Part shown: piece by piece, positions 2,597 to 24,677 of the stretch | Layout of the letters: each line of letters begins with the position of its first letter | How positions within the stretch are numbered: position 1 is the stretch's first letter | From: Colwellia sp. | GTDB taxonomy: Bacteria > Pseudomonadota > Gammaproteobacteria > Enterobacterales > Alteromonadaceae | DNA length: 64,000 bases | Assembly: GCA_013215465.1 (NCBI GenBank) | Contig: JABSOW010000019.1 | Location: 1-64,000, forward strand | Direction: 5' to 3' | Program-made: the position numbers and the translations under genes | The notes under the pieces: model-generated | The model's input: only the letters and a program-made list of their open reading frames with translations | What the model was told of the DNA's origin: nothing | Database searches by the model: none

Positions 2597-2742
2597 CATA
2601 AATTTAATGGAGTACAGTACCTTTTGTAAAAAATAAAAGAGACTGCTGGTATTATACTCACTTTAATAAAAGTTCACCGCTCATTAACGTTGGCACTTCA
2701 ACGATACTACTAGCAACCCCTTTCCTACGATAAAAATTTCAT

Positions 2743-3982: not shown

Positions 3983-4002
3983 TAACAACAGTTTAAATTA
4001 GT

Positions 4003-4037
4003 ACCCAACTTTTGTTAACAAGGGTTGGGGTTCTTTT
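4003..4037 (+). terminator. Hairpin with U-tract between pstS and pstC (attenuator)
   Basis: CCCAAC (4004-4009) pairs with GTTGGG (4024-4029), with a self-complementary TTGTTAACAA in the loop, followed by a T-rich stretch (4031-4037). It probably ends most pstS transcripts and lets some reach pstC, keeping the binding protein in excess. Confidence 0.65.
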
Positions 4038-4073
4038 CAAACATTAGTTTTTCTATAAATTAGTTTTAAAAAT

Positions 4074-5492
4074 ATGAATTCATCTTTATTATTTTTTGTT
4101 TTACTTGGCCTAACACTGTTTAGTTATTGGTTTGGTGTGCAACGTTCATTGAAAGTAGCAGGTGGCGCTGAGCATAAAAAAGAACTTACCAGCCTACCGC
4201 AACAGTTTGGTTTATTAACCGCCATGGTTTGTGGTTTACCTGCCTTGATTACTTTATTGATTTTTAATAGCGCTGAACAAATCATTGTTGAGCAGTTACT
4301 TATTTCGACACTGCCAGCAAATATTCAATCATTATCGTCTGTAGATATTGGCTTATACTTAAATAACATTCATGCAATGGCTAGCTCAGAATCAGCCACT
4401 AACCTGTTACAAGGCTCAGGCATAAGTAGTGATAACTATGTACAAACTCAATACCAAGCAGCATTTACCTTACAAGAGCTAAATCAACAAGCATCTTGGC
4501 TAAAAACCGCCTTAGTATTAATCATTGCTTGTGTCAGTGTTACTGTTTTAGTCAGAAAATTTAGCCTTACTTATCAAGCAAGGCAAAAGTCAGAAAGTAT
4601 TATCCTCGCCTTATTAGTGGCGTCATCTGCCGTTGCTATTCTAACAACCATTGGCATTATTATTTCAGTGTTGTTTGAGTCCATTCACTTTTTTAAAAGT
4701 GTTTCTCCGGTAGAATTTATGTTCGGTACCCAATGGAGTCCACAAACAGCAATGCGCGTCGACCAAGTTGGCGGCTCTGGCTCTTTTGGTGCTATTCCTT
4801 TATTTGCTGGCACCATGTTAATTACCTTCATTGCCATGCTGCTAGCAGTGCCTGTTGGGTTAATGATTGCTATTTACTTATCACAATACGCTTCAGCAAA
4901 ACTACGTGCTTTTGCTAAACCTATGCTAGAAATATTAGCGGGTATTCCCACGGTTGTTTATGGCTTTTTCGCCGCCTTAACGGTAGCGCCCGTCATTCGT
5001 AATTTTGGTGAATCATTAGGCTTAAGTGTCGCTTCTGAAAGTGCCTTAGCGGCAGGTTTAGTGATGGGCACTATGATCATTCCCTTTGTCTCATCATTAT
5101 CAGAAGATGCCATCAGCGCAGTGCCTAACTCATTAAAAGAAGCTTCTTTTGGTATGGGAGCAACAAAAAGTGAAACGGTATTAAAAGTCTTATTACCGGC
5201 AGCATTACCTGGCATTGTTGGCGCTATTTTATTAGCCGTCTCTCGTGCTATAGGTGAAACCATGATAGTGGTAATGGCCGCAGGCATGGCCGCTAATTTA
5301 ACGGCCAATCCACTAGATTCAGTAACAACAGTAACCGTACAAATAGTTACCCTACTAACCGGCGATCAAGAATTCGATAGTCCAAAAACCTTAGCGGCTT
5401 TTGCCTTAGGTTTAATGTTATTTATCACCACTCTCGGGCTGAATGTTTTAGCACTGAAAGTCGTTAGAAAATATCGAGAGCAATATGACTAA
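4074..5492 (+). CDS. pstC: Phosphate ABC transporter permease PstC (long form)
   Basis: Inner-membrane permease that forms the phosphate channel with PstA. The first 200 residues hold two or three membrane segments and a polar, probably periplasmic, region absent from E. coli PstC (319 aa against 472 here). The conserved permease core is in the C-terminal half: GSFGAIPLFAGTMLITFIAM, AGIPTVVYGFFAALTVAP and the EAA loop SLKEASFGMGATKSETVLKV. Its end overlaps the start of pstA by 8 bases, so the two are translationally coupled. Long PstC forms like this are known in Vibrio and Shewanella relatives; the role of the extension is unknown. Confidence 0.93.
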   Translation: MNSSLLFFVLLGLTLFSYWFGVQRSLKVAGGAEHKKELTSLPQQFGLLTAMVCGLPALITLLIFNSAEQIIVEQLLISTLPANIQSLSSVDIGLYLNNIHAMASSESATNLLQGSGISSDNYVQTQYQAAFTLQELNQQASWLKTALVLIIACVSVTVLVRKFSLTYQARQKSESIILALLVASSAVAILTTIGIIISVLFESIHFFKSVSPVEFMFGTQWSPQTAMRVDQVGGSGSFGAIPLFAGTMLITFIAMLLAVPVGLMIAIYLSQYASAKLRAFAKPMLEILAGIPTVVYGFFAALTVAPVIRNFGESLGLSVASESALAAGLVMGTMIIPFVSSLSEDAISAVPNSLKEASFGMGATKSETVLKVLLPAALPGIVGAILLAVSRAIGETMIVVMAAGMAANLTANPLDSVTTVTVQIVTLLTGDQEFDSPKTLAAFALGLMLFITTLGLNVLALKVVRKYREQYD

Positions 5493-6816
5493 AATAAGTA
5501 AAAACTCAACTGTAGATAGTACTAACACTAATAGTGCTCTTTCTACCACAGAAAAGGTCTCACTCAGCCTTAAAAAGCGTCACCGCAAAGAAAAGCGCTT
5601 CAAACGTATTGGGCTTTTTTCAGTACTGTTTGGCTTTCTACTTGTGGTTACCTTAATTGGCGACATTACCTCAAAAGCACTACCCGCTTTCCACCAACAT
5701 TGGGTTAAGCTTGAGGTAAACTATCAGGCATCATGGCTTAATATTGATGAAAGTACCGCACAAAGCCTTAGTGCTAAACAAATGAAAACAGCAAACTATC
5801 GCAATGTCCTGAAAAAATCACTGTATCAAATGTTTCCAGAGGTTAGTGGCCGTAAAGATAAACGGCAGTTAGCTAAGTTATTCAGTAGTAATGCTGAATT
5901 TACCCTGAAAGATAATTTAATTGCTGCCCCGCTATTGTTTGATAAACAAACACAGATATGGGTGAGACTGGATGATGACGTCGACAGTTACCTTAAAGAA
6001 GAGTTTCCGCTAGGTGAAGCTGGGCTGAGAATTAGCCAAAAACAAGCACAGTGGGTGGCACAACTTATCGCAAGTGAGCGTATTGAAAGTAGATTTAACT
6101 TTAGCTTTTTTACTGCCAGTGATTCTCGAGAGCCAGAACTTGCCGGTATTAAAGGGGCGTTAATGGGCACTATACTAACCATGTTTGTCACCCTGTTACT
6201 ATCATTCCCGTTGGGCGTTGCTGGTGCACTCTATTTAGAAGAGTTTGCTCCAAAAAATCGCTTTACCGATTTCATTGAAATAAACATCAATAATTTGGCC
6301 GCAGTACCATCAATTGTTTTTGGTCTATTGGGCTTAGCCGTGATAATCAATTTATTTGGCTTGCCCCGCTCTGCCCCTTTGGTTGGCGGCATAGTACTGA
6401 CCTTAATGACTTTACCAACCATTATAATTGCCAGTCGTGCGGCGATAAAAGCAGTTCCCCCTTCAATTAGAGAAGCGGCGCTAGGGCTAGGTGCTTCGAA
6501 AATGCAAGTGACCTTCTCCCATGTGTTGCCACAAGCAATGCCCGGCATCATCACCGGCGCGATTATTGGTGTCGCACAAGCCTTAGGTGAAACAGCGCCA
6601 TTATTAATGATAGGGATGGTGGCTTTTATTGTTGATGTACCCACCAGTATTGTCGATTCGGCCACGGTATTACCGGTACAAATATTTTTATGGGCAGATA
6701 GCCCAGAAAGAGCTTTTTTAGCAAAAACTTCCGCAGCCATCTTAGTGCTTTTATCACTATTAATGGTAATAAACCTTAGCGCCACCATGCTGCGCAGTAA
6801 ATTTGAAAAGAAATAG
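5485..6816 (+). CDS. pstA: Phosphate ABC transporter permease PstA (long form)
   Basis: Second half of the phosphate channel. A basic cytoplasmic start is followed by one membrane segment (FSVLFGFLLVVTLIGDI). A polar region of about 150 residues comes next, then the conserved permease domain from about residue 210 (AGIKGALMGTILTMFVTLLL, NNLAAVPSIVFGLLGLAVI). The EAA loop is SIREAALGLGASKMQVTFSH. At 443 aa it is about 150 residues longer than E. coli PstA (296 aa), and the extra part is the probable periplasmic loop. It overlaps pstC by 8 bases and is followed by pstB after 9 bases. Confidence 0.93.
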   Translation: MTKISKNSTVDSTNTNSALSTTEKVSLSLKKRHRKEKRFKRIGLFSVLFGFLLVVTLIGDITSKALPAFHQHWVKLEVNYQASWLNIDESTAQSLSAKQMKTANYRNVLKKSLYQMFPEVSGRKDKRQLAKLFSSNAEFTLKDNLIAAPLLFDKQTQIWVRLDDDVDSYLKEEFPLGEAGLRISQKQAQWVAQLIASERIESRFNFSFFTASDSREPELAGIKGALMGTILTMFVTLLLSFPLGVAGALYLEEFAPKNRFTDFIEININNLAAVPSIVFGLLGLAVIINLFGLPRSAPLVGGIVLTLMTLPTIIIASRAAIKAVPPSIREAALGLGASKMQVTFSHVLPQAMPGIITGAIIGVAQALGETAPLLMIGMVAFIVDVPTSIVDSATVLPVQIFLWADSPERAFLAKTSAAILVLLSLLMVINLSATMLRSKFEKK

Positions 6817-6825
6817 GAAAATAGT

Positions 6826-7686
6826 ATGAACGCTATAACTTCAGCCAAGCAAGAACAAGTAAATGTAACAACTAAAGCTAGCTTGTCGCAAATTGAGCTA
6901 ACAGAAACCGTTGGCAATATTTATGCTGATGACGCCAAAATGTCGATTAGAAATGCCAATGTTTATTATGGTGACAAACAAGCCATTGATAATATCAGTC
7001 TAGATTTAGCAAAAAATCAAGTAACCGCACTTATTGGCCCATCAGGTTGTGGTAAATCGACTTTTTTACGGTGTTTAAATCGTATGAACGATACCATAGA
7101 TATTTGTAAAATTACCGGACAGTTCACCCTCGATGATGAAGACATTTATGCTAAAAGTTTAGATCCTGTGCTACTGCGGGCACGTGTTGGTATGGTATTT
7201 CAAAAACCTAACCCTTTTCCTAAATCAATTTACGAAAATGTTGCCTACGGTGCACGCATTCACGGCTTAATTAATAACAAAGCCGAGTTGGATGAAATTG
7301 TTGAAACAAGCTTGCAAAAAGCCGGCTTATTTAACGAAGTAAAAGACCGGCTTAATGATCCAGGTACCGGTTTATCTGGCGGCCAACAACAACGTTTGTG
7401 TATTGCCAGAACCATCGCGGTAAGCCCTGAGGTTATTCTTATGGATGAGCCAGCTTCAGCACTTGACCCTATTGCTACCGCCATTATTGAAGAGCTAATT
7501 GATGAATTAAAGGAAAAATATACTATCGCTATAGTCACTCATTCAATGCAGCAAGCGGCACGTGTTTCACAGCACACCGCTTATTTTCACATGGGCAAGT
7601 TAGTTGAAATGGGTAAAACTGAAGATATTTTCACTCGTCCAAGCCACAAATTAACTGAAAATTATATCACTGGCCGCTTCGGCTAG
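6826..7686 (+). CDS. pstB: Phosphate ABC transporter ATP-binding protein
   Basis: Cytoplasmic ATPase that powers phosphate import by PstCA. Walker A is GPSGCGKST (about residue 69). The Q-loop region is [18 protein letters not shown], typical for PstB, the signature is LSGGQQQR, Walker B is [13 protein letters not shown], and the switch histidine is in IVTHSMQQA. Length 286 aa is about 30 residues longer than E. coli PstB because of a polar N-terminal extension of unknown function. AGGA lies before the ATG. It is separated from pstA by 9 bases and from phoU by only a Shine-Dalgarno spacer. Confidence 0.97.
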
Positions 7687-7698
7687 GTGGAGCAAATA

Positions 7699-8463
7699 AT
7701 GACAACACCAAAAGAAACCAACACACCATCTGGCTTCACCTCTAAATTACATTTAGACAAACACATTTCACGCCGTTTTAATGAAGAACTAGAACAGGTT
7801 AGAAATTTAGTGATGAACATGGGGGCTTTAGTTGAACAACAAGTTAACGACGGCCTAAGAGCCGTATTAAATGCCGATGAGAAACTAGCGGCAAAAGTGA
7901 TAGAGCGGGATCGTGAAGTCAATACCATGGAATTAGAAATAGACGAGTATTGCACCCAAATTTTAGCCCGTCGACAACCTGCCGCCAGTGATTTACGGTT
8001 AATTGTTAGCGTAATTAAAAGTATTACTGATCTTGAGCGTATGGGTGATGAGGCAGTAAAATTTGGTAAAAATGCAATTAAACTTGCCAAAGGTAGCTTT
8101 GCCGAAGAAGAAGGTGCTAGACCCTTAATAGAGTTAAAGCATTTAGGTAATCATGTCAGTAGCACGTTAAATCGGGCGTTGACCGCCTATGCACAAATGG
8201 ATGTCGCTGAAGCCTTAGAAATCATTAAAGACGACAGTATTATTGATGAAGAATTCGATAATATTTCACGTTTACTTGTTACCAAAATGATGGAAAATCC
8301 CCGTGAGATTAAAAATGCCTTGCGAGTAACTTGGTGTGCTCGAGCGCTTGAGCGTATTGGCGATCACACCACTAACTTATGCGAATATATTGTCTACTTA
8401 GTTGAAGGCAAAGATGTTCGCCATTCATCTATTGAACAAATTAAAGCCAGCATTTCAAAATAA
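7699..8463 (+). CDS. phoU: Phosphate signalling regulator PhoU
   Basis: Links PstSCAB transport to the PhoR/PhoB system and holds the Pho regulon off when phosphate is plentiful. The 254-aa protein is an all-helical tandem PhoU repeat. Each half carries the metal-binding E/D-rich helix: SITDLERMGDEAVKFGKNA near residue 110 and ARALERIGDHTTNLCEYIV near residue 225. A GTG at 7687 could extend the frame by four codons, but that GTG is part of AGGTGGAG, which serves as the ribosome-binding site for the ATG at 7699. It is the last pst gene; no phoB or phoR is in the window. Confidence 0.95.
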   Translation: MTTPKETNTPSGFTSKLHLDKHISRRFNEELEQVRNLVMNMGALVEQQVNDGLRAVLNADEKLAAKVIERDREVNTMELEIDEYCTQILARRQPAASDLRLIVSVIKSITDLERMGDEAVKFGKNAIKLAKGSFAEEEGARPLIELKHLGNHVSSTLNRALTAYAQMDVAEALEIIKDDSIIDEEFDNISRLLVTKMMENPREIKNALRVTWCARALERIGDHTTNLCEYIVYLVEGKDVRHSSIEQIKASISK

Positions 8464-12518: not shown

Positions 12519-12539
12519 TTTATTTCCTACTGCTGTAAC

Positions 12540-12977: not shown

Positions 12978-14300
12978 TTAGTTAAGCATGGCTAAACGTA
13001 TTTTCTGTTGCTTTTGAAAAGTTTCTTGCTCACGTTGGGTATATTTAGCCCATTGTTGCGCTGTTTTCTTTATTTTAGGATATTTTTGGGCGCTAGCAAA
13101 AGCCTGTAATGACGGTATAAAGTCTTGTAGATTATAATTGGCCATGCCTTGGGCAAGGTACATATTGCCCAGGTAAGGTGTTTTACTATCATGCTTACTT
13201 TTAGCAATAGCACTGCCAGCAAAGTTAATTGCCAGTTGCCATTGTTCATTATTTAAATATATATGCGCTAACATGGCGTCATATTTACCACCATCAACCA
13301 ATTGTGTTACTTTTTTTAATATTCTAATCGCCTGCTTATCTTCTTTGGCCGCTAAATATGCGCGGCTAAGTAGGTCTAAACTCTTCTCTTGAGCAATAAT
13401 AGTGCCTTGCTCAATGGCTTCATTCAATAAATCTGCCGCTTTAAAAGGTGCACCGTGAAATAAATAAAGTTGGGTCAATGTCATTATATCGCTTGGTTTG
13501 GTAACATAGCCCGCTTGATAAGCAGCCTCCATTACCGCCATTTGTTTATCTTCTTCACCAATTTCACCGTACATGCTCGACAATTGTAACCAATACTGTG
13601 CTTTATCGTATAAACGCACCAGTTGTTCCATCACTTTAGTGACTTGTTTAGGCTGGTCTAATTCAAAGTGAGCAGCTCGTTTTAAAATAAGCCAATTTTC
13701 TTTTGGTAATTTATTTTTTTCTTCAACTAAATAAATTGCATTTTCAATATGAATTAAAGCATCAATAAACTGTTTATCTTGATAATATATTTGCGCAAAT
13801 AACATTTCCTGATTCGCCGTCAAGGCTTTGCTATTTACATTTTTCCATAAGGTTAAATATTCAAGTGCTTGACTATATTTTTGTTGTTGCATTGATAACT
13901 GTGATAATGAGTAATATGTTGAAATTACTAAACTATCTGGAATGGTTTTTTCAGCTATGACCTGTTTAAAGCTATTAATGGCTAGAGTAATGTCGTCATT
14001 ACCATAATACATAAAGCCATAAAAATTAAATAACATTGCTCGTTCATAACTATTTAAACTATTAAGGCGAGCTTTAACGTCATCAAGTACCGAAAATCCT
14101 GCCGATTTATCACCCGCATCAGCTAACCCTTGAGCTCTCGCAAGTTGTGCATAAACACGATTTCGCATAGCGGGAACTCTTTTGGTTGCTTTATCACTTT
14201 TATGTTGTTGCTCTGCTGCTTTACTTTCGGCAAAGCTTGTATTTACACTAAATATTGCCAACAACGCTGCGACAACTAGTAAGGAATTTTTTACTTTCAT
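12978..14300 (-). CDS. TPR protein of the TonB2 operon
   Basis: Probably a periplasmic helper of the TonB2 system. The signal peptide NSLLVVAALLAIFSVNTSFA ends in SFA-E. The 440-aa protein is built of helix-turn-helix tetratricopeptide-like repeats, for example SLSQLSMQQQKYSQALEYL, FAQIYYQDKQFIDALIHIE and MLAHIYLNNEQWQLAINFA. It has no catalytic signature. It is the last gene of the minus-strand run DUF3450-TtpC-ExbB-ExbD-TonB-TPR, 99 bases after tonB, the position a TPR protein takes in Vibrio and Shewanella TonB2 clusters. A structural or scaffold role between TonB and outer-membrane partners is likely but not shown. Confidence 0.85.
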   Translation of the reverse strand: MKVKNSLLVVAALLAIFSVNTSFAESKAAEQQHKSDKATKRVPAMRNRVYAQLARAQGLADAGDKSAGFSVLDDVKARLNSLNSYERAMLFNFYGFMYYGNDDITLAINSFKQVIAEKTIPDSLVISTYYSLSQLSMQQQKYSQALEYLTLWKNVNSKALTANQEMLFAQIYYQDKQFIDALIHIENAIYLVEEKNKLPKENWLILKRAAHFELDQPKQVTKVMEQLVRLYDKAQYWLQLSSMYGEIGEEDKQMAVMEAAYQAGYVTKPSDIMTLTQLYLFHGAPFKAADLLNEAIEQGTIIAQEKSLDLLSRAYLAAKEDKQAIRILKKVTQLVDGGKYDAMLAHIYLNNEQWQLAINFAGSAIAKSKHDSKTPYLGNMYLAQGMANYNLQDFIPSLQAFASAQKYPKIKKTAQQWAKYTQREQETFQKQQKIRLAMLN

Positions 14301-14399
14301 GATCTAATCCTTATTTATCAATTATTACTTGAATTCCAATCGAGTGAACAACTAGAACCTAGCCTTTTTACCAACTTGTAATCCAATTAGCATTAACAA

Positions 14400-15032
14400 T
14401 TAGCCTTCTATTTCAAAGCTGATCTTGTTTTGCACCCCTGCCACTGCCATCGCCACTCCATCAACAACGCGTGGCTTATATTTGAATTTTGCTACCGCAT
14501 CTAAAGCAGCACGATCAAATATTCCTTCTGGCTTGGCTTTAACCACAAAGGCACTACTAACAGCCCCGGTTTTAGTAACAATAAATTCAACAATAACAAA
14601 GCCTTCTATACCACGAGATTGCGCACGTCTTGGGTAAATTGCCGCTACTTTTACAATGGGCAAATAATCACCATCATTACTGTCTAAACTTAAACCAACC
14701 GACAAACCAATATCCGCTTGAATATCAGCAGAAAAACTACTTTTAACCGCATTAGCGTTCGGATTACTTTGCTGCATAGGTGGTGTGATCATTGGTGGTG
14801 GTGGCTCTTTGGGTTTAGCTGGTTTTTGCATTTCTCGTTCTTTTTTGGCTACCGTTTCATCTTTTTTTAAACGAATAAAGTCAAGCACATTACCTTTTGC
14901 AGGCGTAGTCATCACTTCATTACCGCCGGCAATAAGTTTTTGCATGCCCCACAGTAAAATAAAGGTCATAGTTAACGCTAAGGCTCCGGCAATAGCATAA
15001 CGGGCACCACTTCTGACGATTACTGGTGACAT
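14400..15032 (-). CDS. tonB2: Energy transducer TonB (TonB2 type)
   Basis: Spans the periplasm and passes proton-motive energy from ExbB/ExbD to outer-membrane receptors. Residues about 12-32 form the single membrane anchor (ARYAIAGALALTMTFILLWG). A proline/lysine stretch follows (KPAKPKEPPPPMITPPMQQ). The C-terminal domain from about residue 125 has the TonB fold pattern YPRRAQSRGIEGFVIVEFIV and ALDAVAKFKYKPRVVDG. Length 210 aa is in the TonB2 range, shorter than classical TonB. It begins 3 bases after exbD. Candidate clients include the receptor at 20051-22741. Confidence 0.93.
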   Translation of the reverse strand: MSPVIVRSGARYAIAGALALTMTFILLWGMQKLIAGGNEVMTTPAKGNVLDFIRLKKDETVAKKEREMQKPAKPKEPPPPMITPPMQQSNPNANAVKSSFSADIQADIGLSVGLSLDSNDGDYLPIVKVAAIYPRRAQSRGIEGFVIVEFIVTKTGAVSSAFVVKAKPEGIFDRAALDAVAKFKYKPRVVDGVAMAVAGVQNKISFEIEG

Positions 15033-15035
15033 GTG

Positions 15036-15446
15036 TTAAACCTCTTTTGCCGCAATTGAAATGTCAAATACACCGGCTGCTCTAGCTGAATCCATCACCT
15101 TAATTAATATTTCCGTGGTAGATTTTTTATCCGCTTGGATGACAACCGTTCCTTGTGGGTTTTCAGCTTTCAAACGTTCTATGTTGGCTTGAACGCTACG
15201 AATGTCCACTTTGCGCTTATTGATCCAAATATCGCCTTTATCACTAATGGCAACGAGAATGTTAGCACGCTCTTTTTTCACTGCGGTCGCGGCTTCAGGG
15301 CGGTTAACATCAATACCAGCCTCTTTTACAAATGACGCGGTAACAATGAAGAAAATTAATAAAATAAACACCACATCTAACATCGGCGTCATATCAATTT
15401 CTTCTTTTTCATCTTGATCTTGTAACATTTGGTTTAAGTGACGCAT
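15036..15446 (-). CDS. exbD2: Biopolymer transport protein ExbD (TonB2 system)
   Basis: Part of the ExbB-ExbD proton channel that powers TonB. The 136-aa protein has one membrane helix near the N-terminus (PMLDVVFILLIFFIVTASF) with the essential membrane aspartate in DMTPMLDVVF. A periplasmic domain follows (ILVAISDKGDIWINKRKVD, VVIQADKKSTTEILIKVMD). I chose the ATG at 15446 because GGAG lies 6 bases upstream; the frame stays open for four more codons. It is directly followed by tonB. Confidence 0.95.
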   Translation of the reverse strand: MRHLNQMLQDQDEKEEIDMTPMLDVVFILLIFFIVTASFVKEAGIDVNRPEAATAVKKERANILVAISDKGDIWINKRKVDIRSVQANIERLKAENPQGTVVIQADKKSTTEILIKVMDSARAAGVFDISIAAKEV

Positions 15447-15531
15447 AACTAACTCCAATAATTATTCTTTTTTTGATAGCCATTGACAATAAAGTTAACT
15501 GGCTATCAACTATTAATAAAATTCTTATTTC

Positions 15532-16059
15532 TTAATGGCTAACCGATAAACTGTCCGCTAATAATTCAGCTTCTTTTTTGGCATTTCGACGTAACCAGGT
15601 AGCGGTAAAAACACCAGATAATGAGCCAACCATACCAGCCATTGTTGGAATGGTTGCTCGTGATACACCCGAAGCCATAGACCTTGCATTGCCACTACCC
15701 GATATGGCCATCACATCAAACACTTCAATCATGCCTGTTACTGTGCCAAGTAAACCTAATAACGGACATAAAACCACTAAAGACTGAATTAGTGCTAAGT
15801 TACGATTGAGCTTAGTGGTGCCACGAGAAATTAACGCATTACGTATATGTTCGCTATACCACGATGTTTGTTCTTTACGGTCTTGCCAAATACCGATTAA
15901 GTGTGTTTTAACACTGCGATAGCTGTAAAAAACAAAAACAATGCGTTCAAAAATCAATAACCACATAATGAAGATAACGGCGGCAATCACGGTTAATACC
16001 TGACCACCAGTATCCATAAATTCATTAATGGCACCATACATTTCCATTAAGGCAATCAC
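15532..16059 (-). CDS. exbB2: Biopolymer transport protein ExbB (TonB2 system)
   Basis: Inner-membrane proton-channel scaffold, MotA/TolQ/ExbB family. The 175-aa protein has a first membrane segment (VLTVIAAVIFIMWLLIFE), a cytoplasmic loop and the two-helix channel region LIQSLVVLCPLLGLLGTVTGMIEVF and ATIPTMAGMVGSLSGVFTATW. It is the small channel subunit of the operon and follows ttpC by 3 bases. Confidence 0.94.
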   Translation of the reverse strand: MIALMEMYGAINEFMDTGGQVLTVIAAVIFIMWLLIFERIVFVFYSYRSVKTHLIGIWQDRKEQTSWYSEHIRNALISRGTTKLNRNLALIQSLVVLCPLLGLLGTVTGMIEVFDVMAISGSGNARSMASGVSRATIPTMAGMVGSLSGVFTATWLRRNAKKEAELLADSLSVSH

Positions 16060-16062
16060 GAT

Positions 16063-17526
16063 TTATGCTCCTTGGGCGGCAAGTTCTGCATTTTCAGCAC
16101 GCTCGGCAATAATACCGGTACTTTCTTGCTGGAGAATATTAACAATATTACGACTACGACCATTTAAGTAAGCAAAGATAAAGACCATTGGAATGGCAAC
16201 AACTAGGCCTAACACGGTAGTCACTAATGCTTGCGAGATACCACCGGCCATTAGTTTAGGATCACCGGTACCAAATAAGGTAATGGCTTGGAAGGTGTTG
16301 ATCATGCCCGTTACCGTGCCTAATAAACCGATTAACGGTGCGACTACTGAAATGACTTTAATTAAGGTAAGACGTTTTGATAATTTCGGCACTTCACGCA
16401 GAATTGATTCTGATAATTTAAGCTCTAAGGTTGCAGTATCAAGGTTAGGATTGTTATCTTTAACCTGCATAACTCGACCAAGTGGATTATTACTTGATGC
16501 GGTAACTGATTTAAGCTGACGCTCTACTTTAGAGCCAATAAGCACCAAACTAATTAAGCGCTCTAATGCGATAAGTAAGCCCACGACACCAATAGCAATA
16601 ATGATGTAACCTACCGGACCACCTTGGTCAATACGCTCACGAAGATCCGGCGCTTGTACTAACAAACTTAAAATCGAACCACCGGTTGGGTCTAAAGCAA
16701 ATGCGGTGGTATTGCCTTTACTGCTTAGCAATTGGCTAGTTGACGCTAAATAGCGATTTGACGGTTGTCTGATCAGCTCAGCCACCGTACCGGTTTCATC
16801 AATATATTCTAAATATTTTCCATCGGCAATTAAGTTAAAGCCACCAACACGGGTTACCATCGCATTTTTACGGTCACCATTGGCCAATACGACTTCACGA
16901 TTAAAACTGGTTACTTTACCGCTTTCGGTCATTTCACGCTGTAGTTCAAACCATAAACGTTCGATTTCGGCAATAGAAGCTAGTTTTGAACTAGAGCCCA
17001 TGCTCTGGGCAAGTTCATCTAAAAATTGACCACGTCCTGATATCTGAGCAGAAATAACCGAGGTTTGAAATTTACTGCGAGTATCACCTGACACTTGCTG
17101 TAAAACACCAAACAATTCTTTTAATTCACCTAAGCGTTTATCTAAGGCGTCGGTTTTATTCGCCAATTTAATATCATTATCGGCAAAACGTTGCTCAAGT
17201 TGAACACTTAATAATAACGCATTATCACGTTGGTTATTCATCTCACTAAGCATGCTTTGCTGCTGATTAACTTTGGCTTTAAATTGTGCTTCTCTACTTT
17301 TATTTTGCTCAGTTTGTATTATTTTTCCTTGCTCAAGTTGGCTTAATAACTCATCTAAGCTCAGCGCATTTTGTGCATAACTAACACCAACACCACCAAA
17401 GGATGCCAAAGTAAATGAAAGTGCAGCAACGGTGCTGACCTTCTTACACGCTTGCTTTAATTTACCTGCGGTGTTGCTTACTGTATTAATTACGGTATTA
17501 CTTACGGTATTTAAGTAAATAGTCAT
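16063..17526 (-). CDS. ttpC: TtpC-like MotA/TolQ/ExbB proton channel family protein
   Basis: Fourth component of TonB2 systems, shown in Vibrio to be needed for TonB2 function. The 487-aa protein starts with an unusual N-terminal run of Asn-Thr-Val repeats (NTVSNTVINTVSNT), then a signal sequence (VAALSFTLASFGGVGVSYAQ). A periplasmic region rich in coiled coil follows (about residues 50-150, 190-280). The C-terminal third is an ExbB/TolQ channel domain (VVAPLIGLLGTVTGMINTFQ, ISQALVTTVLGLVVAIPMVF). It starts 6 bases after the DUF3450 gene. The asparagine repeats may mean the real start lies further in, at the signal peptide, but no better site is obvious. Confidence 0.9.
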   Translation of the reverse strand: MTIYLNTVSNTVINTVSNTAGKLKQACKKVSTVAALSFTLASFGGVGVSYAQNALSLDELLSQLEQGKIIQTEQNKSREAQFKAKVNQQQSMLSEMNNQRDNALLLSVQLEQRFADNDIKLANKTDALDKRLGELKELFGVLQQVSGDTRSKFQTSVISAQISGRGQFLDELAQSMGSSSKLASIAEIERLWFELQREMTESGKVTSFNREVVLANGDRKNAMVTRVGGFNLIADGKYLEYIDETGTVAELIRQPSNRYLASTSQLLSSKGNTTAFALDPTGGSILSLLVQAPDLRERIDQGGPVGYIIIAIGVVGLLIALERLISLVLIGSKVERQLKSVTASSNNPLGRVMQVKDNNPNLDTATLELKLSESILREVPKLSKRLTLIKVISVVAPLIGLLGTVTGMINTFQAITLFGTGDPKLMAGGISQALVTTVLGLVVAIPMVFIFAYLNGRSRNIVNILQQESTGIIAERAENAELAAQGA

Positions 17527-17532
17527 ATTTTA

Positions 17533-18336
17533 TTACTCTGCTTGGGTCGATGTTTCATTGAGTGAGACCGGCACCATAATCAAATCTGGCGCCAATTGTT
17601 TGCGGGCAATACGCAATGCTTTATTGATACCTAAACGATAATCTTGTGACAATGTTTGCCAATGCCCTTTTTGATCTGATACCTGTTTCCATTCACCTAA
17701 ACGGCTACCGTCACGAGTTTGATACACTAAACTAACCCGACCTATACGTAAAAAATCGACATCCATATCTTGGCCATCAATGGCGATAATACCGCTATAA
17801 GCCTCAATAGTACGACCATAATCCACTTCAATTTGATACGCTTCTAATACCCGACGAAATTTTTCAGACACCGCAATATCGGCACGCTTCATCATGGCTT
17901 GTAAATCATTAACGCGTTTAGCTCGCTCGGTAGGCAAAAACGGTATATCAAGAGCAACGAAGGTAACTAAAGTAGCAATCATCCGTGCCATTAACGGTGA
18001 AATTTGGCGTTCAATAACACTAACGTCTGCCATTGACTTAGCCAGTTGCGCTAATTCCGACATTTGGCTATCAAGCTGTGCTTGCATTTGTTGGTTATAA
18101 ACACTAAGACCATCAACTTCTTTGGTGACCACATTAAATTGTTGTAATTTAGTTTGTACTTTTTCAGTTAAATCATTTACTTTCTGCTGTGATTTAGCCG
18201 CTGATTGATTGATTTGCTGACCAGCATTAACAACCTCACTTAATGGATCGTTAGCATATGCTGAGGTAGCAAAGGTTAAGCTACTAGCACTGAGGCTAAG
18301 GTATAAGCTTGCTTTGGCGAGTTTAGACAACTTCAT
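17533..18336 (-). CDS. DUF3450 family periplasmic protein, TonB2 operon
   Basis: First gene of the TonB2 operon; molecular role unknown. The 267-aa protein has a signal peptide (LYLSLSASSLTFATSAYA) and a long coiled coil (about residues 35-100). A globular C-terminal part follows, with VDYGRTIEAYSGIIAIDGQD and FLRIGRVSLVYQT, typical of DUF3450. Such proteins regularly precede ttpC-exbB-exbD-tonB in Vibrio, Shewanella and relatives. They are thought to act with TtpC in the periplasm. Upstream lie a strong leader hairpin and a possible PhoB site. Confidence 0.9.
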   Translation of the reverse strand: MKLSKLAKASLYLSLSASSLTFATSAYANDPLSEVVNAGQQINQSAAKSQQKVNDLTEKVQTKLQQFNVVTKEVDGLSVYNQQMQAQLDSQMSELAQLAKSMADVSVIERQISPLMARMIATLVTFVALDIPFLPTERAKRVNDLQAMMKRADIAVSEKFRRVLEAYQIEVDYGRTIEAYSGIIAIDGQDMDVDFLRIGRVSLVYQTRDGSRLGEWKQVSDQKGHWQTLSQDYRLGINKALRIARKQLAPDLIMVPVSLNETSTQAE

Positions 18337-18376
18337 CGATTTACCCTTTCTCTTTTATAAGAGGTCATAAATTATA

Positions 18377-18414
18377 AATACCAAGCAAAATATAAATTTA
18401 TTATGCTTGGTATT
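18377..18414 (-). promoter_or_regulatory. Leader hairpin of the TonB2 operon
   Basis: A perfect 11-bp inverted repeat, AATACCAAGCA (18377-18387) and TGCTTGGTATT (18404-18414), with a 16-base loop. It lies about 40 bases upstream of the DUF3450 start, between that start and the possible PhoB site, so it would be in the 5' leader. It could be an attenuator, an mRNA-stability element or a protein site. Confidence 0.5.
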
Positions 18415-18440
18415 AAAAGAATTAGACAAATGGTACCTAG

Positions 18441-18473
18441 TCTATATGACAGTTGAATTTAGGAATTATGACG
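18441..18473 (-). promoter_or_regulatory. Possible PhoB site of the TonB2 operon
   Basis: On the minus strand three in-phase 11-mers read CGTCATAATTC, CTAAATTCAAC and TGTCATATAGA. The outer two have GTCATA cores; the middle one is degenerate. Weaker than the sites before pstS and the lipoprotein gene, but on the same 11-bp grid. Confidence 0.4.
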
Positions 18474-18735
18474 TTTTTGTTGCGCTAATATTGCAATTTA
18501 CTGACGAATTCATAGTGACCAGAAATTTTCATAAAGCCTTTAAACGCTAGACCGACATGACACCAAACACCATGCGAACACAAGTAAACTATTAAGAGCA
18601 AAGACCAACAGCTAAATAGATACACTTAGCTAGCGCTAATGGTATTATAGCGAGAACTTGTTATATAACCTCAGCTTAAAATCTTCTTGAACCGAATTGA
18701 GGTTATGTAAAATAATTTACTCATTGGAGGTTATC

Positions 18736-19914
18736 ATGTCGTTAGGAACACCTTTTTCTAGCGCGGCTAAACGTGTACTGTTATGTGGTGGTGGCGAGTT
18801 AGGTAAAGAAGTGGTTATCGAGCTTAAACGCCTTGGCGTGGAAGTAATAGTGTTAGATCGTTATCAAAATTCACCGGCAATGCAAGTAGCCGATCGCAGC
18901 TATGTGGTTTCTATGCTTGATGGTGATGCCTTGCGTACTATTATTGAAAAAGAACAGCCACATTTAATTGTCCCTGAAATTGAGGCCATTGCTACCGATA
19001 CGCTAGTTGCCTTGGAGAACGAAGGTTTTACCGTTATTCCGTCAGCTAAAGCGACGCAACTAACCATGAACCGTGAAGGCATTCGACGACTTGCGGCCGA
19101 AGAATTAGCCATTCCAACCTCTAACTATCAGTTTGCCAGCACGGAAGCTGCATACCAACAAGCAATAGCAACTATTGGTTTTCCTTGTGTGATCAAACCC
19201 ATAATGAGCTCTTCAGGTAAAGGCCAAAGTGTGGTAAAAAGTGCCGCTGACATTGATGGCGCTTGGCAATACGCCCAAGAAGGTGGTCGCTCTGGCGCTG
19301 GTAAAGTGATTATTGAAGGTTTTGTTGATTTTGATTATGAAATCACCTTATTAACCATACGTCATAAAGATGGTACCAGCTTTTGTCAGCCTATTGGCCA
19401 TGTTCAAGAAAATGGCGATTATCAGCAAAGTTGGCAGCCGCAAGCGATGAACCCTAAGGCATTAGCGACCTCAAAAGATATTGCCACCAAAGTTACTGAC
19501 GCTTTAGGGGGCTTGGGTTTATTTGGTGTTGAACTATTTATTAAGGGTGATGAGGTTTATTTTAGTGAAGTATCACCTAGACCGCATGACACTGGCATGG
19601 TTACTATGATCTCGCAAGATTTAAGTGAGTTTGCCTTACATGCCAGAGCCATTTTAGGCTTGCCTATTCCTAACATTCACTTTCATGGTCCTTCGGCATC
19701 AAGTGTTATTTTAGTCACTGGTGAATCAAGAAAAGTACAATTTGGTAATTTAGCCGAAGCCTTAAGTGACCCTGATACTGATTTACGTTTATTTGGTAAG
19801 CCTGAAGTTACAGGTACTCGTAGAATGGGAGTAACATTAGCAAGAGCGGCAAACGTAGAGCTAGCAATTAAAAAAGCGGTTAAGGCTGCTGCAAGTATCA
19901 CCGTTGAACTCTAG
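18736..19914 (+). CDS. purT: Formate-dependent phosphoribosylglycinamide formyltransferase
   Basis: Purine synthesis: uses formate and ATP to formylate GAR, an alternative to folate-dependent PurN. ATP-grasp enzyme of 392 aa, with [20 protein letters not shown] at the N-terminus, central [20 protein letters not shown] and the ATP-grasp metal site [18 protein letters not shown]. The ATG at 18736 is preceded by TTGGAGG at ideal spacing; an earlier in-frame start (18697) has no such site. It is divergent from the TonB2 operon and monocistronic. Confidence 0.96.
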
Positions 19915-19944
19915 TAAAAAACAGCTTTAAACCCGTAAAAAAGT

Positions 19945-19974
19945 CGCTTGAATTTATTTCAAGCGCCTTTCTTT
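19945..19974 (+). terminator. purT terminator
   Basis: CGCTTGAA (19945-19952) pairs with TTCAAGCG (19958-19965), followed by CCTTTCTTT. It begins about 30 bases after the purT stop. Confidence 0.7.
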
Positions 19975-19984
19975 CAAGTTTAGT

Positions 19985-20043
19985 TATACCCATGATACTT
20001 CAAGATACGAGTTTCAGGCATCTTGAGGTAACATGGATATATA
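19985..20043. repeat. Short palindromic repeat, TATACCC family (copy 2)
   Basis: Left arm TATACCCATGATACTTCAAG; right arm reversed reads TATATCCATGTTACCTCAAG. About 59 bp with only a few loop bases. It has the same ends as the long copy at 27006-27270. It sits between the convergent ends of purT and the receptor gene. Confidence 0.75.
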
Positions 20044-20050
20044 TTAGTAG

Positions 20051-22741
20051 CTAAAATTCGTAGCTGTAGTTTAGGCTAACAACCATACCTACTTCTTTAG
20101 AACGGACGATAATATCTGCTTGAGTCACTTCTTGATCTTCATTTAATATATTTTTAACTTTTAATTTCAACGTTGAAGCAAACGTAGGATAGTAAGTATA
20201 AACCATATCTAGCGAATGAAATGGTTGTTCAAAGGCATCTTCACGGCCACCAACACCAGACGCAAGGATCCGCTCACCAAAGACATTATATAACAGCGAG
20301 GCGCTGTGATTACCATTATCAGAATCGTAACCTAATTGTAAATTTACCACGTATTGCGAATGACCATTCATCCGTTTAACGGTATTGGTTAAATTACCCG
20401 CATAAGCGGGATCAATAGATACTTCTGAGTCACTTAAGGTAATATTACCCGAAGTAAATAAGCCGCTAGTTAGCCAGGTTAAGTTTTTTAGCCATTCAAA
20501 TTCAACACCATACACTTCGGCTGTTTCGCCATTAACAAAAGTCATGGTGTAGTCTTCATCACCAACTGACAATATATTTTCAATAGGTGATTGAATATCT
20601 TTATAAAAAGCTGCAATGGTATAGTTATCGCCATTTTGCCCATAATACTCAAAACGTGCATCGTAATTTTTCAGAGGGCTACTTTTGAGGCCTGATTTGC
20701 CAATAGTACGAATATCAGTTAGCGGATCATAATAAGCCACGGGTACCACTTCTCTAATATCTGGACGTACTACTGTTTCTCCATAACCAAGACGGAGTTG
20801 ATAGTCACTTTCACTAATATAAGTAAACGAAAGCGCTGGATAAAAATCATCTTCTATAATAGTACCTTGTTCTATTTTATCTGGTGAATAAAATATATCT
20901 AATTCACTTTTACCAAAAATCAAACTTGAGGTACCAATAGAGACTTGTTTAAATTCTTCATAACGAACGCCACCACTAATACGCCATTTATTATTATAAA
21001 AGACATCAAATTCACCATAAAAGGCATCGGTTTTTTGTGCCGCTAAATAATCATCAGCATCAGGAGGCGTTGGCTCATTAAAATCAACCAATATTGAGTT
21101 GGCGTCTAATAACGTATCGTGCAAATAATTAGTGATAGTGAGTACATCATCGATATTATTATTTACCGGTATAAAAACACCCGTTTCATTATTGACACCA
21201 AATGTTGAGGTATTATACAAACGAGCTTTGTCGGTGAAATCGTAGCCGCCTTTAAATTCCATTTCAAAATTACCAACATAAACTGGTAAAACAATATTAC
21301 CCCCATACGATTTAACATTATCTTCTAGGTCAATAAATGAATAAATAACACGATTATCATCACCTGATATTTCAGACTTACTGTATTTTCCATCAATATA
21401 GCTGTCGTCAAACTTATAACTAGCATCAAGAGGAATATCAGTTTTTGCTGTCGATTCAGTATATTGCCAGTCAAAACCTAAACCACCATAATCTAAAAAG
21501 GTATGCTGACCAATAATTTGTGTAATACGTAACTCACGGTCTTCGTAACTAAATTTATGACTTCTATCGGCTTGACCATTACCAGAAATAGTATTTACCG
21601 TACTACCATTAGGACTTTGTAAGGTCGACACTTCGGTTTCATCTTCTGAATCTGTTAAATAAATTTCTGATAACGAGACACTATGGCTGCCAAGACGATA
21701 GCCTAGGTTAAATACCAAGTTTGTTTTTTCATTTTCGGTGGTAACTAAAGATTCTTTCACTGTATTAAAGCACGAATTAGTAATATCGTCCTTATTGAGT
21801 AATTCTGTACTACAGTTTTCTGAAAAATTTTCACTAAGCACCGCTTGAAATCGCGCCGAACTTTGCCACTCGTTTTTATATGAGCCGGCCAGTAAGAAGC
21901 CAATTTGCCCGCCAAGCCACGGTTCATCAAAATTATTACCAATATGAGCTTTAACATCATAATTGGGATCTAATGATTCATCCCTCATAACCATATTACG
22001 CGGTAAGGTTTTTAATAATTCACTATTAATCGCACGGGCTTGAACCGCTCTATCATCACCGACTAAATGCTTATTATTAATAATACTACGTAAGCTAAAG
22101 TCACCTTTATATTTTACTATCGCTTGCCTTAATTCAGTAGAGATACCATTATCATTACGATTATAGGTATATCCTGAGCCTGAATTGGAGTTATAGCCCA
22201 CACCTAAGTCAACGCCCGCGGTAAATTCTTTTGGCACAGCTTTGGTACGAATATCAATATTACCGCCACCAAAGGTTGCCGGCATCGAAGGAGAGTAAAC
22301 TTTTTGTACCGCAAGGCTTTCAATAATACTGGCTGGAAAAATATCTAGCGGTACCACATTGCGTGTTAAGTCTGGGCTTGGAATACTAGCACCATTTAAG
22401 CGGGCGCTGGAATAGCGTTCACCTAAACCACGTACATAAATAAACTTACCATCAACCAAGGTTAAACCAGTAACACGGCGTAATGCCGAGGCGGCATCGC
22501 TATCACCGGTTCTAGCTAATTGTTCAGCACCTAGAATATCGGCAACAAATGCTTGGTTTTTTCTTTCTGCTATTACTGCTGCCGCACTACCTTGCAAACG
22601 AGTAGCAACCACAACAACTTCTTCCATGGCTTCTTGTTGGGCTTGTCTATCTTGCTGCTCGGCAGCTAGATTACTGGTATATGATAACAATCCTAAGCTG
22701 ACCGCAAATGTCAATTTCTTGAGTTTATGTTGAGTTTTCAT
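20051..22741 (-). CDS. TonB-dependent outer-membrane receptor
   Basis: Outer-membrane active transporter; ligand unknown. The signal peptide LTFAVSLGLLSYTSNLAAE is followed by a TonB-box-like EEVVVVATR at about residue 42. A plug domain comes next (GDSDAASALRRVTGLTLVDG, FIYVRGLGERYSSARLNGAS), then a long beta-rich barrel ending in an aromatic residue (SLNYSYEF). At 896 aa it is a typical large receptor. It lies 118 bases downstream of a lipoprotein gene whose promoter region carries a PhoB-like array, separated by a hairpin with a U-tract. The DUF3450-TtpC-ExbBD-TonB operon is 1.7 kb away. A phosphorus-containing ligand taken up under phosphate starvation is my inference. Confidence 0.92.
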   Translation of the reverse strand: MKTQHKLKKLTFAVSLGLLSYTSNLAAEQQDRQAQQEAMEEVVVVATRLQGSAAAVIAERKNQAFVADILGAEQLARTGDSDAASALRRVTGLTLVDGKFIYVRGLGERYSSARLNGASIPSPDLTRNVVPLDIFPASIIESLAVQKVYSPSMPATFGGGNIDIRTKAVPKEFTAGVDLGVGYNSNSGSGYTYNRNDNGISTELRQAIVKYKGDFSLRSIINNKHLVGDDRAVQARAINSELLKTLPRNMVMRDESLDPNYDVKAHIGNNFDEPWLGGQIGFLLAGSYKNEWQSSARFQAVLSENFSENCSTELLNKDDITNSCFNTVKESLVTTENEKTNLVFNLGYRLGSHSVSLSEIYLTDSEDETEVSTLQSPNGSTVNTISGNGQADRSHKFSYEDRELRITQIIGQHTFLDYGGLGFDWQYTESTAKTDIPLDASYKFDDSYIDGKYSKSEISGDDNRVIYSFIDLEDNVKSYGGNIVLPVYVGNFEMEFKGGYDFTDKARLYNTSTFGVNNETGVFIPVNNNIDDVLTITNYLHDTLLDANSILVDFNEPTPPDADDYLAAQKTDAFYGEFDVFYNNKWRISGGVRYEEFKQVSIGTSSLIFGKSELDIFYSPDKIEQGTIIEDDFYPALSFTYISESDYQLRLGYGETVVRPDIREVVPVAYYDPLTDIRTIGKSGLKSSPLKNYDARFEYYGQNGDNYTIAAFYKDIQSPIENILSVGDEDYTMTFVNGETAEVYGVEFEWLKNLTWLTSGLFTSGNITLSDSEVSIDPAYAGNLTNTVKRMNGHSQYVVNLQLGYDSDNGNHSASLLYNVFGERILASGVGGREDAFEQPFHSLDMVYTYYPTFASTLKLKVKNILNEDQEVTQADIIVRSKEVGMVVSLNYSYEF

Positions 22742-22759
22742 CTGGAAATTTTATCCTCA

Positions 22760-22794
22760 AATAAAAAATAGGCACATTACAAAAGCGCCTATTT
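22760..22794 (-). terminator. Hairpin with U-tract between lipoprotein and receptor genes
   Basis: Read on the minus strand, AAATAGGC (22787-22794) pairs with GCCTATTT (22766-22773) and a T-rich run follows. It lies in the 118-base gap and probably causes partial termination. More lipoprotein than receptor would result, the same layout as pstS/pstC. Confidence 0.65.
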
Positions 22795-22859
22795 CTACAA
22801 TCTATTCTTTATAAAAATTAACTAAATCACTTTTATAAAGGAATCTAAAGGAACTGAAA

Positions 22860-24503
22860 TTAATCTTGCTCAGCGGCAGCAATAGCGGCTTCTGCCCACT
22901 TATACCAATTTGAGCCAGTATCTTGAGCAGAGACTGCACCTATATAATTTACCGTCTCAAAAAAGCTATCATTTAAAGACGTTAAGTCATTCGCTGTTAC
23001 CGTAATGTCTGTCGAAGCTGTATCAGTTGCAAAACCATTAGCAGCAAGTACTGAAGCATTACCACCTATACGTTCATTGGCACCGCCATTATCAAACCAG
23101 TCAGCTTTAGCTGTGGTTTGTAATGCTGCTGGCGCTTTATCACCAAAAACACTATCGCCTTTAAATTCATTGATACATGCCATAGCTGAGCTAGTAAAAG
23201 AAAGTTTATCTGCGTTTTTCTCGCCATCGCTTTTAAATTGCACACAATCAGTACCGTTAGTACCATCAGCTTTAACCATTAGCACATTATAGTAAGCACC
23301 TTGAATTGCATCATCAAATTTAAATGCTTGTGAAGGGTCGCCGTCACGCACAGAGGCGCCATCGGTAGTGATCACTGTTACATTAGCAATAGTAGGATTA
23401 GAGGCTGGCGCTTGGCTATAATCTGCACCAGAGTTTTTCTCGCCATCGGTTTCAAAACCATTGTTACCCATAAAAACGGCTGTTCCGGCTGGAATAGTAT
23501 TACCGTCAACGACCACATCTTTTTTAGTGTTAACAGTACCGTGTTTAACCAAGATGTATTGAGCCTTACCTTGCCAGCCACCATCAATATCAATACCATC
23601 ATCTTGGGTATCAGTTACCACAATATGTTTAAGAGTTGATGCCCCGCCGAAAAACTCGATACCATCATCAAAGCCTTGATGAATATGGATATAATCAAAG
23701 GAAGAGCCAGAGCCAACACCATTTAATGTTAATGAGTTAAGATCATCACCAGCGCCACCTGTTTTAGGACCAGAGCCAGCGTACCAAATTTTAGCGTATT
23801 GAATGGTGCCACTATTATCAGTATTGTCGTTACCACCAAAATGGCTTAACACCCCTTCAGTTGGCGCATTACAAGTAGCAGCATCACGTTGTGCATCGGT
23901 ACATTGGTTAGTAATACCAAAACCGTTAATGATAATACCACCCCAATCGGCGAATTGTGCCCCATCACCAACAACATCTAAGCGAGAGTAAGCATTAGCC
24001 GAGGTAAAATTAATAGGCTTTTCTAACGTGCCGATGGCATTTATTTTTGCGCCACGGGCAACACGAATAATAGCTTCGCCAGAATCAAATGCTAAATTAG
24101 CACCCGCTTCAACCGTTAAAGTAGGACCATTAGCGACCACAGTACAAGCCGTAGTAGTATCGCAATTTTTACCAATTAATAACGCACCATTAAAAACATG
24201 CACACCGTCGCTAGCAAGCTCAGCAAAAGTAAGATCTTCAGTAATTTCTACATTTTTGCTGGCAAAAGCAGCACTATAAAGACAATCTTGACCGTCATAA
24301 GCACCTTGTAAATCACCACGTGTGGCACACGGGTTAGAATCTGTAGTTGGTATAGTGGTGGTATTACCTGAATTATTAGTGCTGTTATCAACACTTTTAT
24401 CATTTACTGTTGGCGTGATATTGATATCTCCACCACAACCAGCCAACGCTAATGCACCTGCAACTATACTTACTTGAAAAATATTTTTAAATTTTATTTG
24501 CAT
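22860..24503 (-). CDS. Predicted surface or periplasmic lipoprotein, beta-helix-like
   Basis: Function unknown. The ATG at 24503 starts a lipoprotein signal (FKNIFQVSIVAGALALAGC) with lipobox LAGC; an earlier in-frame start at 24560 would spoil it. After an Asn/Thr-rich linker, the 547-aa product has repeats of the type LTVEAGANLAFDSGEAIIRV, suggesting a parallel beta-helix. It also has Asp/Gly-rich loops (HQGFDDGIEFFGG, TDTQDDGIDIDGG) that could bind metal. Cysteines occur in pairs (CDTTTAC, CTDAQRDAATC), fitting disulfides outside the cytoplasm. It precedes a TonB-dependent receptor on the same strand and follows an eight-unit PhoB-like array. A ligand-capturing partner of the receptor is a reasonable guess. 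Confidence 0.85.
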   Translation of the reverse strand: MQIKFKNIFQVSIVAGALALAGCGGDINITPTVNDKSVDNSTNNSGNTTTIPTTDSNPCATRGDLQGAYDGQDCLYSAAFASKNVEITEDLTFAELASDGVHVFNGALLIGKNCDTTTACTVVANGPTLTVEAGANLAFDSGEAIIRVARGAKINAIGTLEKPINFTSANAYSRLDVVGDGAQFADWGGIIINGFGITNQCTDAQRDAATCNAPTEGVLSHFGGNDNTDNSGTIQYAKIWYAGSGPKTGGAGDDLNSLTLNGVGSGSSFDYIHIHQGFDDGIEFFGGASTLKHIVVTDTQDDGIDIDGGWQGKAQYILVKHGTVNTKKDVVVDGNTIPAGTAVFMGNNGFETDGEKNSGADYSQAPASNPTIANVTVITTDGASVRDGDPSQAFKFDDAIQGAYYNVLMVKADGTNGTDCVQFKSDGEKNADKLSFTSSAMACINEFKGDSVFGDKAPAALQTTAKADWFDNGGANERIGGNASVLAANGFATDTASTDITVTANDLTSLNDSFFETVNYIGAVSAQDTGSNWYKWAEAAIAAAEQD

Positions 24504-24576
24504 TTTATCTCTGCTCCGCAGAATTGTTGTAGACCAAGTAATACCATTAATTGGTATCAAGATTAATTTGGCTTAA

Positions 24577-24582
24577 ATACTA
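24577..24582 (-). promoter_or_regulatory. Possible -10 element of the lipoprotein-receptor operon
   Basis: TAGTAT on the minus strand lies just downstream of the last 11-bp unit of the PhoB-like array, at the position expected for a PhoB-dependent promoter that lacks a normal -35. Confidence 0.45.
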
Positions 24583-24589
24583 CAAGAGA

Positions 24590-24677
24590 AAAATGACAGA
24601 AATATTTTAGAAATATGACTTTTTATTGACAGTAATATGTCACTTAAATAACACTTAAATAACACTTAAATGATAAC
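24590..24677 (-). promoter_or_regulatory. Eight-unit 11-bp PhoB-like array
   Basis: Plus-strand units of exactly 11 bases begin at 24590, 24601, 24612, 24623, 24634, 24645, 24656 and 24667. Examples are AAAATGACAGA, AATATGACTTT, TTATTGACAGT, AATATGTCACT and TAAATAACACT (twice). On the minus strand several carry a TGTCA or AGTCA core; CTGTCAATAAAAAGTCAT closely matches a two-unit Pho box. This is the upstream region of the lipoprotein-receptor pair. Confidence 0.75.

Follow-up and report, generated by a model that had tools for sequence, protein, structure and literature searches.

A candidate PhoB-controlled, TonB-energised outer-membrane acquisition system in Colwellia and its relatives

We analysed a 64,000-nucleotide stretch of the genome of a marine bacterium, Colwellia sp. 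(assembly GCA_013215465.1, contig JABSOW010000019.1, positions 1 to 64,000; hereafter the window), which carries on its minus strand adjoining genes for a surface-type lipoprotein and a TonB-dependent receptor (TBDT), together with a six-gene operon of the TonB2 motor type. These two transcription units probably make up a PhoB-controlled, TonB-energised system for acquisition across the outer membrane. Pho-type arrays stand before both units, the lipoprotein and receptor genes are adjacent, and the six-protein motor tracks the pair within the genus; judged from the sequence, a shortage of phosphate seems to turn on lipoprotein, receptor and motor alike. A first-pass annotation of the same DNA had read the locus as an import system for times of phosphate scarcity, and this reading is supported here by conserved Pho arrays, by phoBR neighbours, by the lack of a Fur signal and by relatives that respond to low phosphate. 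We infer that the compound imported by the receptor contains phosphorus. The features concerned are the following, with the pst genes, which presumably belong to the same regulon and lie outside the import system, at the end.

24589..24676, minus strand: PhoB-box-like array of eight 11-bp units before the lipoprotein gene (score 48.2)
22860..24503, minus strand: surface-type lipoprotein of 547 aa, ElpS-like, predicted right-handed beta-helix, LAGC lipobox
20051..22741, minus strand: TonB-dependent receptor of 896 aa (TonB_dep_Rec_b-barrel 5.7e-18, Plug 4.8e-07)
18442..18507, minus strand: weaker PhoB-box-like array of six 11-bp units before the TonB2 operon (score 21.3)
17533..18336, minus strand: TtpB-like protein (DUF3450, PF11932 8.9e-84)
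16063..17526, minus strand: TtpC-like protein, MotA/ExbB domain plus a long N-terminal part (PF01618 6e-31; named from gene order)
15532..16059, minus strand: ExbB2-like protein (PF01618 1.6e-19)
15036..15458, minus strand: ExbD2-like protein (PF02472 6.8e-33)
14400..15032, minus strand: TonB2-like protein (PF03544 1.5e-17)
12978..14300, minus strand: TtpD-like tetratricopeptide repeat (TPR) protein (TPR matches below cut-off, best 26.2 bits against 27)
2742..2807, plus strand: reference PhoB-box array before the pst operon (score 49.2)
2891..8463, plus strand: pstS-like, pstC-like, pstA-like, pstB-like (ABC ATPase) and phoU genes

PhoB-type arrays before the pair and the motor operon

Arrays were scored with a matrix for PhoB half-sites of the E. 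coli type. The score of 48.2 before the lipoprotein gene was reached by none of 1000 dinucleotide shuffles (best 18.3) and, in a separate run, by none of 500 (best 20.1), and in window-wide listings of two, three, four and six units only the pstS array at 2742..2807 outscored it. The first-pass annotation had described eight 11-bp units with TGTCA cores; the array itself withstood the shuffling, and the description of the cores did not hold, exact TGTCA being present in two of the eight units. Five further cores are one base off (TGACA, AGTCA, TATCA and TGTTA twice), and the remaining core, TAAAA, is degenerate. The other seven lie in a single phase modulo 11. The weaker array before the TonB2 operon (21.3) was likewise reached by none of 1000 shuffles (best 18.1), while the upstream regions of ppk, purT and acs, taken as controls, stayed at chance level, with scores of 6.1, 5.1 and 2.8 matched by 74, 80 and 219 of 300 shuffles. 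Both transcription units are thus preceded by PhoB-type direct repeats of 11 bp, by which members of the PhoB regulon are recognised. Iron control was considered as a candidate and rejected, as no Fur-box signal precedes either unit: the best match to the Fur consensus was 11/19 before the TonB2 operon, equalled by 287 of 300 shuffles, and 13/19 before the other unit, equalled by 58 of 300.

The TonB2 operon runs from 18336 to 12978, and the 1.7-kb gap between it and the receptor gene holds a purT-like gene on the opposite strand. By their domains the six genes follow the Vibrio TonB2 order (TtpB-TtpC-ExbB-ExbD-TonB-TtpD), with the TPR matches of the last one below cut-off. The host genome contains two DUF3450 operons, the one in the window and a paralogous one (G000:C12), and we compared 31 such operons of the host genus, namely the window's plus 30 that were fetched and that are not all copies. 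A site above the control threshold (defined in the next section) preceded 15 of the 16 operons nearer to the window type and none of the 15 nearer to the other type. The sole window-type failure (L164) is distant from both types, the paralogous operon of the host genome (L182) has no Pho array, and in 12 of the 16 window-type operons, the window's included, the best array has six units. The weaker 11-bp site proposed earlier before the TonB2 operon is thus borne out by both the shuffles and the paralogues.

The motor also follows the lipoprotein across genomes. Among 39 genomes of the host genus, 24 carry the lipoprotein family, five of them in the single form seen in the window and the rest in a longer tandem form, and at least two strong DUF3450 operons (>200 bits) were present in 22 of these 24 versus none of the 15 genomes lacking the lipoprotein. 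This co-occurrence was counted by eye, and its Fisher p of 5e-9 is uncorrected for kinship among the genomes and should not be read literally.

Conservation of the pair, the arrays and the phoBR neighbourhood

We assembled 80 loci from 49 genera, hand-picked from two genome searches, and set the array threshold at the 95th percentile of 811 upstream regions (other genes of the 80 loci, the window and a set of 23 named loci partly from the same genomes). Because these controls include Pho genes, the window's pstS being the highest, the test is conservative. Sites above threshold were found before the lipoprotein gene in 46 of 79 scored regions and before ttpB (DUF3450) in 33 of 40, so that 59 of the 80 loci, in 38 of the 49 genera, have one before the lipoprotein gene or the TonB2 operon; the 23 named loci passed in 14 cases before the lipoprotein gene and in 7 of 15 before ttpB. 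In the Colwellia-type relatives the arrays occupy the equivalent place before the lipoprotein gene. Loci from another class of the phylum (L209-L241) exceeded the 95th percentile of random positions, a weaker control than upstream regions, in 28 of 32 cases.

The receptor gene lies directly downstream of the lipoprotein gene on the same strand in all 66 loci taken from the family Alteromonadaceae (40/40 single-type, 20/20 tandem-type and 6/6 further loci) and in 23/23 named loci, whose genomes overlap with the former. Outside the family it adjoins the lipoprotein gene in 9 of 14 loci, in three of these downstream. Both ttpB and ttpC fell within the 20 kb taken in 22/40 single-type, 13/20 tandem-type, 1/6 further, 5/14 outside-family and 15/23 named loci; in Pseudoalteromonas the lipoprotein gene follows the motor operon. 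In L105 and L112, peptidase-like and channel-like genes, read from their N-termini, stand between receptor and motor and look incidental.

A link with phosphate control that is independent of the binding-site matrix came from the neighbouring genes, whose commonest other clusters were phoR and phoB. In 21 of the 80 loci, from 14 of the 49 genera, the 20 kb taken includes both (200-bit cut), compared with about 0.4 of 80 loci expected on our estimate (20 kb of ~4.3 Mb), and a pstS-type gene was also present in 17 of these 21. Representatives from L124 matched the NCBIfam PhoR, PhoB (TIGR02154) and PstS-family models above cut-off. The comparison of gene order and PhoB arrays in Colwellia, Pseudoalteromonas and relatives, by which the first-pass annotation was to be judged, was thus mostly favourable; the loci that failed it are weighed below.

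Three further neighbours were observed. In L124 the gene between pstS and the lipoprotein gene (12088-12891) encodes a protein of 267 aa that matches 2OG-Fe(II) oxygenases and has relatives in 6/80 loci. Colwellia relatives (L085, L086, L142, L143) and the window (27345-28646, with acs between) have a gene for an ammonium transporter upstream of that for the lipoprotein. In L113 a gene for a sulfatase-family protein (10882-12654), divergent from the lipoprotein gene, has a Pho-like site of 21.7.

The rest of the phosphate machinery was examined in the host genome. The pst-phoU and ppk-ppx genes reported earlier were found in the window, the pstS-like product matching TIGR02136 at 147.9 bits, below the cut-off of 206.6. 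PhoB and PhoR are encoded elsewhere in the genome (G000:C35; TIGR02154 and TIGR02966 above cut-off), with a Pho-like pair upstream (L273, 19.0), and a DUF47-PHO4 transporter operon has a strong Pho array (L272, 35.4). Pho-box-like pairs precede a general porin gene (L277:3999-4946, 14.7) and the gene of a second TonB receptor of 829 aa (L275:3725-6211, G000:C12 at ~440,200-442,700; 18.6), which matches siderophore-receptor models below cut-off. These four cases come from eight stretches taken from the genome; of the others, L274, L276 and L278 have no upstream site above 13, and in L279 a site of 14.7 precedes an open reading frame (ORF) without identification. A two-unit Pho pattern with up to two mismatches occurs at 524 places in the whole genome and at 443 in a backward control, hardly more, and single Pho pairs are therefore weak evidence. 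In another locus a general porin gene near phoB (L095:14954-15877) has a Pho-box-like site of 28.4.

The lipoprotein, the receptor and their published relatives

The lipoprotein ORF was listed from a TTG at 24560, 28 bp from the array; the likelier start is the ATG at 24503, which lies 85 bp away from the array and is followed by the lipobox. The LAGC motif occupies residues 20-23 of the 547-aa protein, its Cys is invariant in 16/16 aligned orthologues, and the signal peptide was judged by eye. The closest match, at 88% identity, is from Colwellia, and among the matches listed at least 195 of 246 sampled genomes of the family hold the lipoprotein. The protein matched no Pfam (E 0.01) or NCBIfam family, hence no SusD family, and a PDB sequence search gave no relative at E 1. 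A plain Foldseek search with the predicted model returned E values of 0.017 and above only; re-alignment of these matches with VIA-align, which covers what Foldseek finds and leaves folds that it misses invisible, pointed to a right-handed beta-helix as the predicted fold, many of the neighbours being beta-helix proteins that act on polysaccharides. The stretch from position 279 to 398 contains 14 invariant acidic residues. The receptor has a mean column identity of 77% over 20 sequences, a weak match to TIGR01782 (178 bits, cut-off 310) and no PDB relative at E 0.001 in a profile search; its structure model is poor in the plug (mean pLDDT, the predicted local distance difference test, 62.5). 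Lipoproteins of about 1360-1390 aa, apparently with three tandem beta-helix units, stand beside the same receptor and motor in L137, L138 and L139, and among the matches listed a genome usually shows one lipoprotein ORF, of the single or the multi-unit kind.

The published relatives are described here from excerpts of the papers cited. In the freshwater bacterium Caulobacter crescentus, ElpS (Cc0170) is a lipoprotein of the cell surface that is produced when phosphate runs out and is repressed by phosphate salts; iron depletion is said, with data not shown, not to induce it (PMC2996285). Its gene is followed by cc0171 and gspC-N, and type II secretion genes are adjacent in some other species too (PMC2996285). 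The same order of lipoprotein, TBDT and gsp genes was seen in our relatives from another class of the phylum, which profile A1 detected with E values down to 1e-47: of 33 loci, 13 have gspD within 3 kb of the TBDT gene and on its strand, so that this feature is not general there, and GspC matches are below cut-off. In seven of the 33 (L210, L216, L220, L222, L223, L227 and L230) the pair lies near a VirB4-type secretion ATPase cluster, whose identity was confirmed on L222 only. The Colwellia locus resembles ElpS-Cc0171 in its LAGC surface lipoprotein paired with a TonB receptor gene, the Pho link consisting of arrays here and of a starvation response there. It differs, in a comparison by description and gene order, in lacking type II secretion genes, no gspD/E/F homologue being present in the window and only one of 104 scanned sequences (L156) having them, and in possessing its own TtpB-TtpC-ExbB-ExbD-TonB-TtpD operon with a Pho array.

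In Flavobacterium johnsoniae the related lipoproteins FI and FII are encoded beside TBDTs in the clusters PUSIII and PUSIV, the latter in the phoBR cluster, and these clusters are induced by phosphate depletion; FI was the most abundant exoprotein, and the authors report 31-36% identity to the Caulobacter protein over 50-54% of the length (PMC8115612). Likened by description, these clusters also combine a polygalacturonase-like lipoprotein (FII is listed with IPR011050) with a TBDT, but they belong to Bacteroidota and the excerpts mention no motor of the TtpB/TtpC type. The SusCD/PusCD systems of that phylum likewise join a surface lipoprotein to a TonB receptor, some being induced by phosphate depletion (PMC8115612), whereas the partner there is SusD-like and that of Colwellia is a predicted beta-helix without a Pfam match. 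The earlier statement that no system of this make-up had been described was consequently too strong, since ElpS-Cc0171 and the Flavobacterium PUS clusters are on record and the kind is not new.

As for the motor, the Vibrio TonB2 operon includes a DUF3450 protein (TtpB2) and ends with a TPR protein (TtpD2), is iron-regulated and serves siderophores, while the TonB3 operon begins with a receptor gene, does not serve iron and has no known ligand (PMC6957404); a paper on Teredinibacter also describes the function of TonB3 as unknown (PMC10734418). By description these share the six genes, ttpB first and ttpD last; unlike the Colwellia locus, they have no lipoprotein partner or Pho site described in the excerpts (PMC6957404). 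Various TonB receptors are reported to belong to the PhoB regulon of Caulobacter in a study from 2024 (PMC11208175), and in the excerpts on Pseudoalteromonas tunicata Pst and PhoBR are present and the pair is not described (PMC2536512). We found no description of the gammaproteobacterial cluster in the open-licence PMC literature searched, to the extent that its excerpts reach.

Alternative explanations and the proposed working of the system

The lipoprotein might chiefly be released from the surface and assist or activate a secreted phosphatase, with the receptor engaged in signalling or bringing in a separate cargo and no joint import taking place. Overproduction of ElpS does raise supernatant phosphatase activity, and the protein is shed, probably through proteolysis (PMC2996285), and the gspD genes beside the receptor in the other class fit such a role. 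Refolded and immunoprecipitated ElpS, on the other hand, had no phosphatase activity, and its deletion did not lower that of the supernatant (PMC2996285). The near absence of gsp genes noted above counts against it too, and in Alteromonadaceae the pair accompanies a dedicated TonB motor, which speaks for energised transport; we regard this explanation as unlikely. It seems very improbable that the TonB2 operon is a general energiser, for iron and other substrates, that lies near a Pho-controlled pair by chance. The siderophore service of Vibrio systems with the same six genes (PMC6957404) and the single-type loci with the motor outside the 20 kb taken are in its favour, yet the paralogous operon of the host genome has no Pho array whereas nearly all of the window type have one, the window-type operon tracks the lipoprotein across the genus, and its Fur match is of the kind that shuffles produce. 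Lastly, it is quite unlikely that the cargo is a glycan or glycoconjugate, such as a phosphorylated or sulfated polysaccharide, that is set free during phosphate stress and whose real value to the cell is carbon. The fold neighbours of the lipoprotein and the resemblance of the receptor to TIGR01782 lend themselves to this, and plant glycans were also considered by the authors of the Flavobacterium work (PMC8115612); but fold does not show function, and the recurrent neighbours identified were phoR, phoB and pstS, other recurrent clusters not having been screened for carbohydrate enzymes.

Several points weigh against a PhoB-controlled acquisition system. The E. coli matrix may not match the PhoB sites of Colwellia, the 80 loci are hand-picked and related by descent so that their counts are not independent, 21 of them have no site above threshold before either unit, and many Pseudoalteromonas sites before the lipoprotein gene are short or not significant. 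Eighteen of the 40 single-type loci lack ttpB and ttpC inside the 20 kb taken. In Caulobacter, the elpS deletion left supernatant phosphatase unchanged, intracellular phosphate did not differ detectably, and cc0171 was said, with data not shown, to be constitutive (PMC2996285); the excerpts of the published work searched name no ligand for any relative.

In the acquisition system that we propose, phosphate shortage would lead phosphorylated PhoB to turn on both transcription units. The lipoprotein at the cell surface would capture a scarce phosphorus-containing ligand and pass it to the receptor, whose plug the dedicated motor would pull by means of the proton-motive force; the ligand would then enter the periplasm, where phosphatases and PstS could take over. 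Because the porin gene with a Pho-box-like pair in the host genome suggests a passive route for free phosphate, we favour over free phosphate a ligand that passes porins poorly, such as a large, polymeric or metal-complexed organophosphate.

Passage of phosphate across the outer membrane is usually regarded as passive diffusion through porins. A bolder and more doubtful possibility is that many marine Gammaproteobacteria actively pump phosphate or a phosphate complex across this membrane with a complete PhoB-controlled TonB machine of lipoprotein, receptor and private motor that is reserved for phosphorus; the complex might then be calcium-bridged, given the 14 invariant acidic residues of the lipoprotein. 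The seemingly new element is the dedicated motor preceded by a Pho array of its own, often accompanied in the family by phoBR-pstS. With it, the widespread orphan pair of the ElpS-Cc0171 type gains a regulatory and energetic context, and the system offers clear mutants and ligands for testing how phosphorus passes the outer membrane in phosphate-poor water.

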